The notes under the pieces: generated by a model
What the model was told of the DNA's origin: nothing
The model's input: only the letters and a program-made list of their open reading frames with translations
The model's database searches: none
Position numbers and translations under genes: made by a program
Source: Bauldia sp.
Lineage (GTDB): Bacteria; Pseudomonadota; Alphaproteobacteria; Rhizobiales; Kaistiaceae
Direction of reading: 5' to 3'
DNA length: 64,000 nucleotides
NCBI GenBank assembly: GCA_037200845.1
Contig: JBBCGQ010000001.1
Location: 434,001 to 498,000, forward strand
In this document: piece after piece, positions 57,784 to 63,712 of the stretch
How positions within the stretch are numbered: the stretch's first letter is position 1
Layout: the number at the start of each line of letters is the position of its first letter

Positions 57784-59337
57784 ATGCGTGCCCTTGTCGT
57801 TGCTTGCCTCGCAGTTCTCTCGGCCGCCCTATTCGCCGTGCTGCCGCTGTCGCCCGCGTCCGCCGCCGAACGTCTGGCAGCCGGCAGTTGGGCCGACAGT
57901 TGTCCTAACGGGAGCGTGTCCGGTTTCACGCTGACGGCGGATTGCCTCGACGGCGCCGGCGCTCTTCACACGACCTCGCTCTCTCTGTTGAGCTGCGGGC
58001 AGCCGCCGGCGGCGGGCAACGCCAACGGCCGGCTCGTCTGCGAAAGCGGCCCGCGTAGCCTGGCGGTTCCCGGCAGTTGGTCCTCCTCCTGCGGCAACGA
58101 TCTGCTCGCGGGCCAATCGTTGAAGGCGATATGCCTCGACGGCGCCGGCCAGAAGGTCTCGGCCTTTCTCGACCTGTCGACCTGCGCCCGGCCGCTGCGC
58201 GCCGGCAACCAGAACGGCCGCCTGGTCTGCGAAAGCGGCCTCGCGCAGGCTGCGCCGACCTCGCGCACGACGATCCTCCATCTGAATCCGCCGCCGCCTG
58301 CTGGTCCGCCCCCGGTATTGCGTTTGCCTCTGCCCGTGCCGGGTATCGTGCTCAATGTTCCCGGCCAGGCCGCATCCGCCGGCCCGAGCTTTGCCGGCGC
58401 CTGGAACGTCACGACCAATGCCGGCGAACGTTTCCAACTCCTGCTCAATCAGAATGGCGCCGCCGTCACCGGCAGTGCCGATGTCAACGGAACCCACGTC
58501 ATCCTCAGTGGAAACGCGGTCGGCGGACGGCTCGATGCCACCTGGGTGATCGGCACCCCGTCCGGCGGTCGGCTTACCGGCGCCGGCGTATTCGATTTAT
58601 CCCCCGACGGCAGCCAACTCACGGGCGCGCTACGGATCGGCAGCCAGGTCGCGAACAACGCCTCCTGGGTGGGCGTGCGGGGCAGCGGCGCCTCGTCTGT
58701 CGTCTTGGCTCCACCTGGCGCCGCAAATCTTCCGGCCATGACTACAACGAACAGTGCCGACGGCCCCGTACGGGCGACCGTCAGGAGCTCCGTCTCCATA
58801 CGCACCGCGCCCACGATGAAGGGCTCGGACATCTTGGGCACGCTTCTCCAGGGTACCGAGGTGACGGTCGAGTGCCAGAAAAGCTGGTGCGCGCTTTCAA
58901 CCGGCGAGGGTTTTGTTTCGAAGGGATTCCTCACCCTCCATGGCCCAGCGGCATCGACAAATACCGCCGCATCAACTGGCGCAGCAATGCCGAGCAACGA
59001 GACCCGCGTCGCCGTCGGGCAGGTCGCGCCCCCGTCCGCCGCGGCGCCGGTTGCGGTCGACTCGTTCGTTGGCTCCGGCTGCAGTCCACGCCCGCCTTCC
59101 GTGGATCTCGGCGGCGCCAAAGTCACGCTGATGTTCCACAACGCCAGTTCCGCCACGCGCCACTTGTTCTGGATCAACAGGAACGGCGAGCGGGTGCCCT
59201 ACCAGATCATCCCGCCGGGCGGCACCGTGCCGCAAGAAACTTTCAACGGGCACGTCTGGGAGCTGACCGACGAAGACGGCCAGTGCAAGACGTTCTTCAC
59301 CGCAGGGACTATCAGCCAGACGCTGGAGACGCACTGA
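57784..59337 (+). CDS. Multi-domain secreted protein: cyanovirin-like repeats, SH3, VHL-beta-like domain
   Basis: A 517-residue exported protein. Signal peptide 1-27 (LSPASA). Residues 30-152 are two tandem repeats like the halves of a CVNH (cyanovirin-N) lectin domain; Cys at 40/54/71/86 and 103/117/134/149 have identical spacing (14, 17, 15), and each repeat ends NGRLVCESG. A Pro-rich linker (168-190) precedes a beta-rich domain (200-300, FAGAWNVTTNAGERFQLLLN). A bacterial SH3 domain (334-385, SVSIRTAPTMKGSDILGTLL) and a C-terminal domain (426-517) resembling the beta domain of VHL (LFWINRNGERVPYQIIPPGG, GHVWELTDEDGQC) follow. Carbohydrate binding is inferred from CVNH; domain calls were made by eye. 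Confidence 0.8.
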   Translation: MRALVVACLAVLSAALFAVLPLSPASAAERLAAGSWADSCPNGSVSGFTLTADCLDGAGALHTTSLSLLSCGQPPAAGNANGRLVCESGPRSLAVPGSWSSSCGNDLLAGQSLKAICLDGAGQKVSAFLDLSTCARPLRAGNQNGRLVCESGLAQAAPTSRTTILHLNPPPPAGPPPVLRLPLPVPGIVLNVPGQAASAGPSFAGAWNVTTNAGERFQLLLNQNGAAVTGSADVNGTHVILSGNAVGGRLDATWVIGTPSGGRLTGAGVFDLSPDGSQLTGALRIGSQVANNASWVGVRGSGASSVVLAPPGAANLPAMTTTNSADGPVRATVRSSVSIRTAPTMKGSDILGTLLQGTEVTVECQKSWCALSTGEGFVSKGFLTLHGPAASTNTAASTGAAMPSNETRVAVGQVAPPSAAAPVAVDSFVGSGCSPRPPSVDLGGAKVTLMFHNASSATRHLFWINRNGERVPYQIIPPGGTVPQETFNGHVWELTDEDGQCKTFFTAGTISQTLETH

Positions 59338-59577: not shown

Positions 59578-59865
59578 ATGCGTCGTCTTATCCTGGCGGC
59601 AGCTCTGGCTGCCGCGTCCGCTTCGTTTGCGTTTGCTCCGGCCTTCGCCGATGGCGCCTTCTCGGACGATCCGGGCGTCAACGATCTCGGTGTCGACATC
59701 GGCGGCGTGAACCTGACGCCGTCGGGCGTGCACGCTTACCTCGCCGCACAGTCGCCCGAGATGCGTCGCGAGCTCGTGAACGCGTGCAACACCTACCTGA
59801 CGCATCCGGCCGGCGCCGGCGAAGCGACGCTCGCCTTCTGCGGCGACATCGGCGGCAAGGCCTAG
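59578..59865 (+). CDS. Small secreted protein of unknown function
   Basis: A 95-residue protein with a clear signal peptide (RLILAAALAAASASFAFAPAFA, cleavage after AFA at about 24). The mature 70 residues contain two Cys (in NACNTYL and AFCGDIGG), allowing one disulfide, and a helix-like SPEMRRELVNACNTYL. The ribosome-binding site GGAAGGA fits the ATG at 59578. I do not recognise the family. It is followed by a terminator, so it is probably well expressed and transcribed alone. Confidence 0.85.
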   Translation: MRRLILAAALAAASASFAFAPAFADGAFSDDPGVNDLGVDIGGVNLTPSGVHAYLAAQSPEMRRELVNACNTYLTHPAGAGEATLAFCGDIGGKA

Positions 59866-61136: not shown

Positions 61137-62189
61137 CTATGCCGGCATGCGACGGATCAGTGCCTTGATCCACACCATGCATGCGCCGATCGCCCACTCC
61201 GTTTGGAATTTTGTCAGCGAGGCCGGGGTGTCGGACCCAGGCCCGTGGCTAAGAGGGTTTCTGATTGCGGTGAAGAAGTGCTTCAGCGCGACCGCTTCCC
61301 AAGGTTCGATGAATTTGGCGCGATTGGACGCGAGATTGTCGATGAAGTTGTGGGCTCCAGTTTCCCGGCCTTGGGTCCAGCCCATCTCCTCGGAGATGAC
61401 CTTGATGGTACTCTCAAGAGCACGTGCCGCGTATAAGGCCGGATCGCGCCCAGCAGTGTCACGACGATCAACCGCCTCCTTCATGTCCACATCGACGTTC
61501 CTCCACCGGGGGTCGGCTAGTAGGGTCCAAAAAGGTGCATCGACCTCTCGAGTCGAAAGGTTGTCCGGAGCAAGCTGGATAAAGCCGTTGTGGTAGTGGA
61601 GAGGGGCGCCCGCCTGTTGGAACCGCGTATTCAGCTCTGCCACCGCATTAAGGAATGATTGGCTCTTCGCGACATTCGCCGCTGTGAGACCGTCAGCCAA
61701 ATCTCCGGGAAGGCGGAAGAGTGATGTTGACGGTCGAAGCTTCGCTGCCGAGATTGTAGCGGGAAGCTTGGCGGTTTCCTCCGTTATCTGATCGCCCCGG
61801 GTTCGAAACCCTATTTCTACTAGGCTAAGCCGCTCCATGATGAAGGAACCGGCAGGCTCAGTCCCATCAAATGCCTTAAGCATCCAATTTTCGCAGACCG
61901 TTATGATCGGCCAAGTGCCGGCGATCTGATGTGGCTTCCCCATCCAGGTGCTCGTGTACGCGTAGGCGTGCGGCGAAAGTGATTTGACCCCGAGTTCCAT
62001 GGAGAGACGATTGTGTATGTCTATCCAGAAAGCCTTCCCCGTGTCGCTCTCGTTGCCCCCGACATAGAAGGGGCATACCTGCTCGGCCAATATTCGGAAG
62101 GCCTGAACAATCAGGCGGCGCTGTTGTTCGCCAAATGAAGTCCAGATTTGGGTTGATGCATAGCGGTGGGCAAAGATATCGGTCAGCAT
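61137..62189 (-). CDS. Abortive-infection-type protein with HEPN motif
   Basis: A 350-residue protein whose N-terminus (LTDIFAHRYASTQIWTSFGEQQRRLIVQAFRIL is typical in order) resembles the AbiJ N-terminal domain family, and whose C-terminal 100 residues are helical with the HEPN ribonuclease motif R-X4-H: Arg310-His315 in FTAIRNPLSHGPGS. HEPN proteins of defence and toxin systems cleave RNA. ATG 62189 lies 24 bases after the stop of the STAND-type gene, so the two form an operon. GC content is visibly lower than in the core genes. Family assignment is by eye. Confidence 0.7.
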   Translation of the reverse strand: MLTDIFAHRYASTQIWTSFGEQQRRLIVQAFRILAEQVCPFYVGGNESDTGKAFWIDIHNRLSMELGVKSLSPHAYAYTSTWMGKPHQIAGTWPIITVCENWMLKAFDGTEPAGSFIMERLSLVEIGFRTRGDQITEETAKLPATISAAKLRPSTSLFRLPGDLADGLTAANVAKSQSFLNAVAELNTRFQQAGAPLHYHNGFIQLAPDNLSTREVDAPFWTLLADPRWRNVDVDMKEAVDRRDTAGRDPALYAARALESTIKVISEEMGWTQGRETGAHNFIDNLASNRAKFIEPWEAVALKHFFTAIRNPLSHGPGSDTPASLTKFQTEWAIGACMVWIKALIRRMPA

Positions 62190-62213: not shown

Positions 62214-63712
62214 TTAAGTTGGCTGCAGCAGCGGTGCGAAAAGTGCGCGCAAATCATCATCATCAAACGCGTCAGACTGCTCGGACGACCTAAGGCCAAC
62301 GGATGGTGAATTTGACCGCCCGTGGGTGTCTTCAAGCCATTCTCTCTTCTTCTCGACTGCCTCGACGGCGTGTTCGATTGCGACAGCCGAAACGCTGGCT
62401 CGAGCCCCGAGCTTTCGCAGCGTTCCCGCATAGTCATTCAACGTAGACTCTGAATCGATGTCAGATATTGCTTCTCCTACGTTCGCAATCTCACTGCGGA
62501 TCGCCGCGTCTACCGCTTCAAGCGCATCCGTGCTTAGGGCATATCGCCATCTCTCGACGGCGTCGGACACATTCTCAAGCTCGTCCCCCGGCATTCCAGT
62601 TTCCAACATCCCAATAAAGTGTTGCTCCAAGAGGTCCGCCATTCGAGCGGCATTTGGGAACTCGCCGTAGTAGCCATCGTCGCGAAGCTTTCCCATCAAT
62701 CCGACGACCTCTTCGCCGTCGCGCCAAGAGTCCAACCCTCCGATAGGGTACTCCGACAGTGACAGAGCCGTTTCGGCGAAAACATCTTCCTTGGCTTCAA
62801 ACCACCAGCAGATCAGAAGGTCGATTCGGGCAACATTGTTTAGCCCATAGGCCCTGCCTATCCGAACATTGTTCTCCAGCGCGTACATGTAGATCGGTTC
62901 CTGCGCGAACTGGGCAGCGACCGAATCGAAAGCTGCGGCTAAGCTGGCGACATTACCCCGCTCCTTGATCTGCTTGCCCTGTTCCCAAACTGCGGCCGCC
63001 CATTTCGTGGAAACCGCTGCCCGCGCTAGGTCGCAGAGCAAGTGAAAATCGTTCACGTATCCGGCTAGGTAGTCCCGAAGCGAAGGATTAATAAATGTGA
63101 CCGTCCCATCCTCGATGGAAACGAATCCACCTTCGAGAATGCGTAGTGCTTCTTCAAAATCCTTTGGATCGTGTGAATCTCCATACTTCGCCGATAGCGC
63201 TGAGTGCACCGCGCGGTAGTTAATTCGAAGCACGTCGACTGATACGCCGTACTCTGAACAGAAATATAACGTCAGCAACAAGTGCTGGCAGGCTTTGGAT
63301 ATGTGAGTTCGAAACGCGATGTCCCAAAGACGGGTCGGATGATCGAGCAGGTTCTTGAACTGCCTTGGATAATCTGCAGCCGGAATGTCGTGGACATGGG
63401 AGATATCCGTCATCCACTCAATTAGCCGTGGATTATAATGCTCGTGATCGACGACTTCCACGAGGCTGCCGCTGTTGATAAGCGACGCGATATGCGCTTG
63501 AGGCGTGCCAGAGGCAACGAGATGATTATAGAGAATTCGCGCCCTTATTCGTCGATCGTACACCTCAACATCGAGGACATACTTCGCAATTTCCAGACGA
63601 CGATCGGCGAGGTGCTCTGAAACTCGACGAGCTTCTTCGAAGATGTATGCGCGAGTCGTTAGGATAAACCGGGCGTTGGGCGACGAGCGCACACGGCTTA
63701 TGAAACGTGCAA
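62214..63712 (-). pseudogene. STAND-type ATPase gene, 5' part lost at an IS junction
   Basis: The remaining 3' part encodes about 500 residues. Near its broken start it reads LARFISRVRSSPNARFILTTR followed by AYIFEEARRVSEHL, which is the segment after Walker B in STAND NTPases of defence systems; the rest is a helical region of unknown role with an acidic C-terminus (DAFDDDDLRALFAPLL). The Walker A and any N-terminal effector domain are missing. The frame hits TGA at 63723-63725 just where sequence of the insertion element begins, so the gene is interrupted. An internal GTG at 63692 could still start a fragment. Confidence 0.7.

Follow-up and report, generated by a model that had tools for sequence, protein, structure and literature searches.

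The window, by which we mean the whole 64,000-nucleotide stretch of DNA analysed here, encodes an exported multi-domain protein of 517 amino acids (intact ORF at 57784..59337, + strand) whose C-terminal VHL-beta domain carries equivalents of all five residues that contact hydroxyproline in human VHL, and these residues are kept in most of the bacterial VHL domains compared. All of the domain families discussed here are already known, while the conservation of the pocket residues across the bacterial domains is new. In animals, VHL is the reader of prolyl hydroxylation in oxygen sensing, and many PROTAC drugs use it as their handle. We suggest, tentatively and at somewhat less than an even chance, that the window protein is an exported binder, in which the lectin part would take glycans and the VHL part would take hydroxyproline or a similar ring, the targets being probably foreign glycoproteins. 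The first-pass annotation of this DNA had proposed a multi-ligand binder, and the retained pocket would make that proposal more specific.

The ORF starts with an ATG, and a GGAGG is located just 5' to it. Residues 1 to 28 (57784..57867, +) constitute a Sec-type signal peptide which ends in ASA-AE, with cleavage predicted after ASA, and the protein would leave the cytoplasm by means of this signal. The domains follow in the order of a CVNH pair, a beta-rich middle domain, a bacterial SH3 domain (SH3_3) and the VHL-beta domain. No catalytic domain was found in the 517-aa protein.

The VHL-beta domain spans residues from about 433 to 513 (59080..59322, +). The Pfam family of VHL (PF01847) matches residues 447 to 497 with an E-value of 2.5e-5 and a score of 24.6 bits, which is above the cut-off of 21, and a profile built from bacterial VHL domains matches human VHL with an E-value of about 3e-12. 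AF2 modelling of residues 424 to 517 together with 20 bacterial relatives (21 aligned sequences, no templates) yields an all-beta model with a pLDDT of 80.5 and a pTM of 0.72. Foldseek comparison of this model with the PDB gives pVHL for 50 of the 50 matches listed (best E-value about 3e-6, probability 1.0), with TM values of about 0.6–0.7 on the query and about 22% identity in the alignments. Since AF2 may have learned pVHL, the profile is the more independent evidence of the two. Profile and model together lead us to assign the 426–517 region firmly to VHL-beta, with a predicted pVHL beta-sandwich fold, and the resemblance to the VHL beta domain noted in the first-pass annotation is thereby borne out.

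The window protein agrees with the pVHL beta domain in predicted fold, in sequence profile and in the five hydroxyproline-contact residues. However, only the beta domain matches, and the alpha domain with its Elongin C box is absent. The chain stops at residue 517, about 20 residues past the Pfam match, and, ending this close to the beta domain, it has no Elongin C box. The bacterial protein is also predicted to be exported, whereas pVHL is cytosolic. A further difference from pVHL is the presence of two extra cysteines in the bacterial VHL domains, one before the first strand and the other after the H-x-W segment. Of 50 domains, 47 have both and 2 have neither, and the remaining domain has an odd, unpaired one. 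Because the two cysteines occur together, a disulfide is suggested, which would fit an exported protein; in the window protein, it is probably formed between Cys433 and Cys501.

In pVHL, the residues W88, Y98, S111, H115 and W117 contact Hyp564 of HIF-1alpha (PMC4195687). According to our alignment, the equivalents of these residues in the window protein, all on the + strand, are W463 (59170..59172), Y473 (59200..59202), T486 (59239..59241), H490 (59251..59253) and W492 (59257..59259), respectively. Threonine at the position of S111 is also found in Drosophila VHL (PMC4195687). We compared the pocket in 35 bacterial VHL domains obtained from whole-genome family searches or protein searches, leaving out one near-duplicate. 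All five residues are kept in 27 of the 35 domains, that of the window protein included, in a sample whose sequences are interrelated and were retrieved with a family profile that itself rewards conserved positions. Position by position, threonine or serine is kept in 35 domains, histidine in 34 and tyrosine in 27 (the Y98 position is thus lost in 8), while one of the tryptophans is kept in 35 and the other in 33. The five pocket columns carry a mean of 3.8 bits of information, whereas the average column has 2.0; five columns drawn at random are as conserved as this with a p of about 1e-5, a value uncorrected for kinship among the sequences. Strong conservation is otherwise seen at N78 and G93. 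The pocket residues could be kept partly for folding. Largely the same pocket residues are present at VHL loci, in the cyanobacteria, Verrucomicrobia and Chloroflexi at most of them, of Hyphomicrobiales, Granulosicoccaceae, Nostoc, Synechococcales, Verrucomicrobia and Chloroflexi, although the scan patterns included some of these residues.

VHL is present in 20 of the 101 nearest relatives. Samples drawn across the class and across the phylum gave it in 7 of 385 and 7 of 398 genomes, respectively, and none of 14 well-known control genomes has it. The domain stands alone or is joined to CHAT (L080), to MliC (L017) or to a recurring N-terminal domain. Found alone or with such varied partners, VHL behaves as a mobile module that is added to exported proteins of bacteria; a signal-peptide-like start was seen by a rough test in 32 of the 35 VHL carriers. 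It is almost as probable as the hydroxyproline reading that the VHL-beta fold in these proteins is a generic secreted scaffold, the cage of which binds a sugar, a proline-containing or aromatic peptide or a small ring, and that the likeness of the pocket reflects descent or folding needs only. The highly mixed partner domains (CHAT, MliC and unknown ones) would be in line with a scaffold of this kind, as would export of the bacterial proteins in contrast to cytosolic pVHL. However, a scaffold does not readily account for the retention of five contact residues, with the polar serine or threonine and the histidine among them, in so large a share of the domains.

The gene surroundings of VHL bear on both readings. 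No 2OG-oxygenase family is present beside the named VHL loci among the 25 commonest of 79 neighbour families, and this lack of a neighbouring hydroxylase is also what a generic scaffold would predict. In the window genome, PF13640 is matched only by one YbiX-type dioxygenase and PF13661 has no match. If the VHL part does bind hydroxyproline, these observations make a foreign source of it more likely than a hydroxylated partner of the bacterium's own.

Several of the VHL carriers deserve mention for their architecture. The CHAT fusion (L080:1648-3264) is a Synechococcales protein in which the CHAT domain is fused to VHL-beta. In many exported proteins of alphaproteobacteria, VHL is preceded by a recurring N-terminal domain with the motif (V/I)PETD...C (L065, L066, L009, L004, L018, L073, L092, L094, L095 and L096), and scanning of this part of L006/L065, L066 and L073 revealed no Pfam family. 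In one genome, two VHL-domain proteins (L011 and L022; G045:C1:999677-1000335) are encoded side by side.

The protein EMK97_00595 of Litorilituus sediminis has earlier been described as a bacterial, exported VHL-beta protein and was read as a tumour suppressor (PMC9002001). It resembles the window protein in being bacterial and exported and in having a VHL-beta domain but differs in the reading given to it, and the passages searched in that report contain neither a hydroxyproline-pocket comparison for EMK97_00595 nor CVNH. This is the sole report of a bacterial VHL domain that we found in the open-licence literature, where only one other paper, on an unrelated subject, names PF01847, and earlier mentions may exist elsewhere. 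A wider proposal, which we regard as rather doubtful, is that VHL-beta domains which read hydroxyproline are exported in several bacterial phyla to recognise hydroxyproline-rich proteins of hosts or of the environment, and that the animal oxygen-sensing reader, which shares the pocket, may derive from such modules. If bacterial exported VHL does bind hydroxyproline, recognition of plant, algal or animal matrix proteins would be a second and possibly older role of the family. In that case the bacterial domains would also be useful in the laboratory as small hydroxyproline binders, probably stabilised by a disulfide, and one could test directly where the VHL pocket came from.

The lectin part of the window protein consists of a CVNH pair (residues 34 to 150; 57883..58233, +) with four cysteines per repeat. 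The cysteines are located at positions 40, 54, 71 and 86 in the first repeat and 103, 117, 134 and 149 in the second, so that the spacing 14-17-15 occurs twice, exactly as the first-pass annotation had reported. From the single sequence, the Pfam family (PF08881) matches residues 37 to 147 with an E-value of 5.5e-5 and 24.3 bits, 0.2 bit under the cut-off, and an NCBIfam mannose-binding lectin model also matches the protein, far under that model's cut-off. AF2 modelling of the whole 517-aa protein from the single sequence gave no usable fold (pLDDT 35), the CVNH part included. However, cyanovirin-N is matched with an E-value of about 3e-11 by a profile that combines the window protein with a relative in genome G004 and with two CVNH stretches from a third genome. 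Because of this match we consider the CVNH assignment, and with it the earlier reading of residues 30 to 152, secure at the level of sequence. The pair shares with cyanovirin-N homologues the tandem repeats and the first cysteine pair of each repeat, but has two more cysteines per repeat and a longer inter-repeat stretch and is fused to other domains. By analogy with the family, it probably binds glycans, which would probably be of the mannose type.

The middle domain (residues from about 203 to 299; 58390..58680, +) shares 34% identity with that of the G004 relative. It is beta-rich as described earlier, and no Pfam family matched it. A PDB search gave only a weak match (0.009) to OspB of Borrelia, and a resemblance to OAA-family lectins appeared below the cut-off (E 0.005) for the G004 copy only; both were left as leads. 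If the latter resemblance is real, the middle domain of the G004 relative would be a second lectin. The SH3_3 domain (PF08239) covers residues 335 to 383 (58786..58932, +) in a full-length match with an E-value of 5.9e-6. Its score of 26.8 bits lies 0.2 bit under the cut-off of 27, and the match in the G004 relative is sub-threshold too, so the SH3 call of the first-pass annotation holds at the threshold only. The single-sequence scores of CVNH and SH3_3, both just under their cut-offs, might also have arisen by chance in a secreted protein of low complexity, but such an origin of the domain calls is very improbable: the profile searches, together with the fold match of the VHL model, refute it for CVNH and VHL.

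The full architecture of CVNH, barrel, SH3 and VHL was seen in the window protein only. Other Hyphomicrobiales had been suggested as a place where the same domain order might recur; among 397 genomes of the order it was found in no other protein, and one relative carries the order minus VHL. This relative (L002 ORF, P0002, in G004) resembles the window protein in having CVNH, the beta domain and SH3, with 36% identity, but ends in a Pro/Ala/Lys-rich tail in place of VHL. CVNH itself is present in 3 of the 397 genomes and the CVNH-barrel-SH3 core in 2 (the window genome and G004), while scanning of the full-length protein against genome contigs and plasmids returned no relatives. It is also conceivable, though unlikely, that the protein serves periplasmic or envelope housekeeping, with SH3 on the cell wall, CVNH on the bacterium's own surface polysaccharide, VHL on an envelope partner and no foreign ligand. 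The presence of SH3_3 would suit such a role, and the gene is oriented divergently from a block that includes genes for an RNase D-type exonuclease, LPS-transport-type genes and rpoN. However, this setting is not shared by the G004 relative, which is not syntenic and lies on a different contig than the RNase D homologue of that genome, and the core is rare in the order, unlike housekeeping genes. We return to the exported binder of foreign glycoproteins, in which a VHL module appears joined to a core known without VHL from G004. The aromatic cage with its threonine and histidine would, as the residue conservation suggests, bind 4-hydroxyproline or a very similar ring in an extracellular polypeptide. 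Together, CVNH and VHL might anchor either the cell or a secreted capture protein to plant or algal hydroxyproline-rich glycoproteins or to collagen-like material, and the SH3 domain may tether the protein to peptidoglycan.

Directly downstream of the gene and in the same direction, a small exported-looking protein of 95 amino acids with no clear family is encoded at 59578-59865 (+). Further on, the gene of an AbiJ_NTD4 protein (61137-62189, -) adjoins an ORF that matches nSTAND3 NTPase (62214-63692, -), and this pair, about 2 kb downstream, is a possible anti-phage locus.
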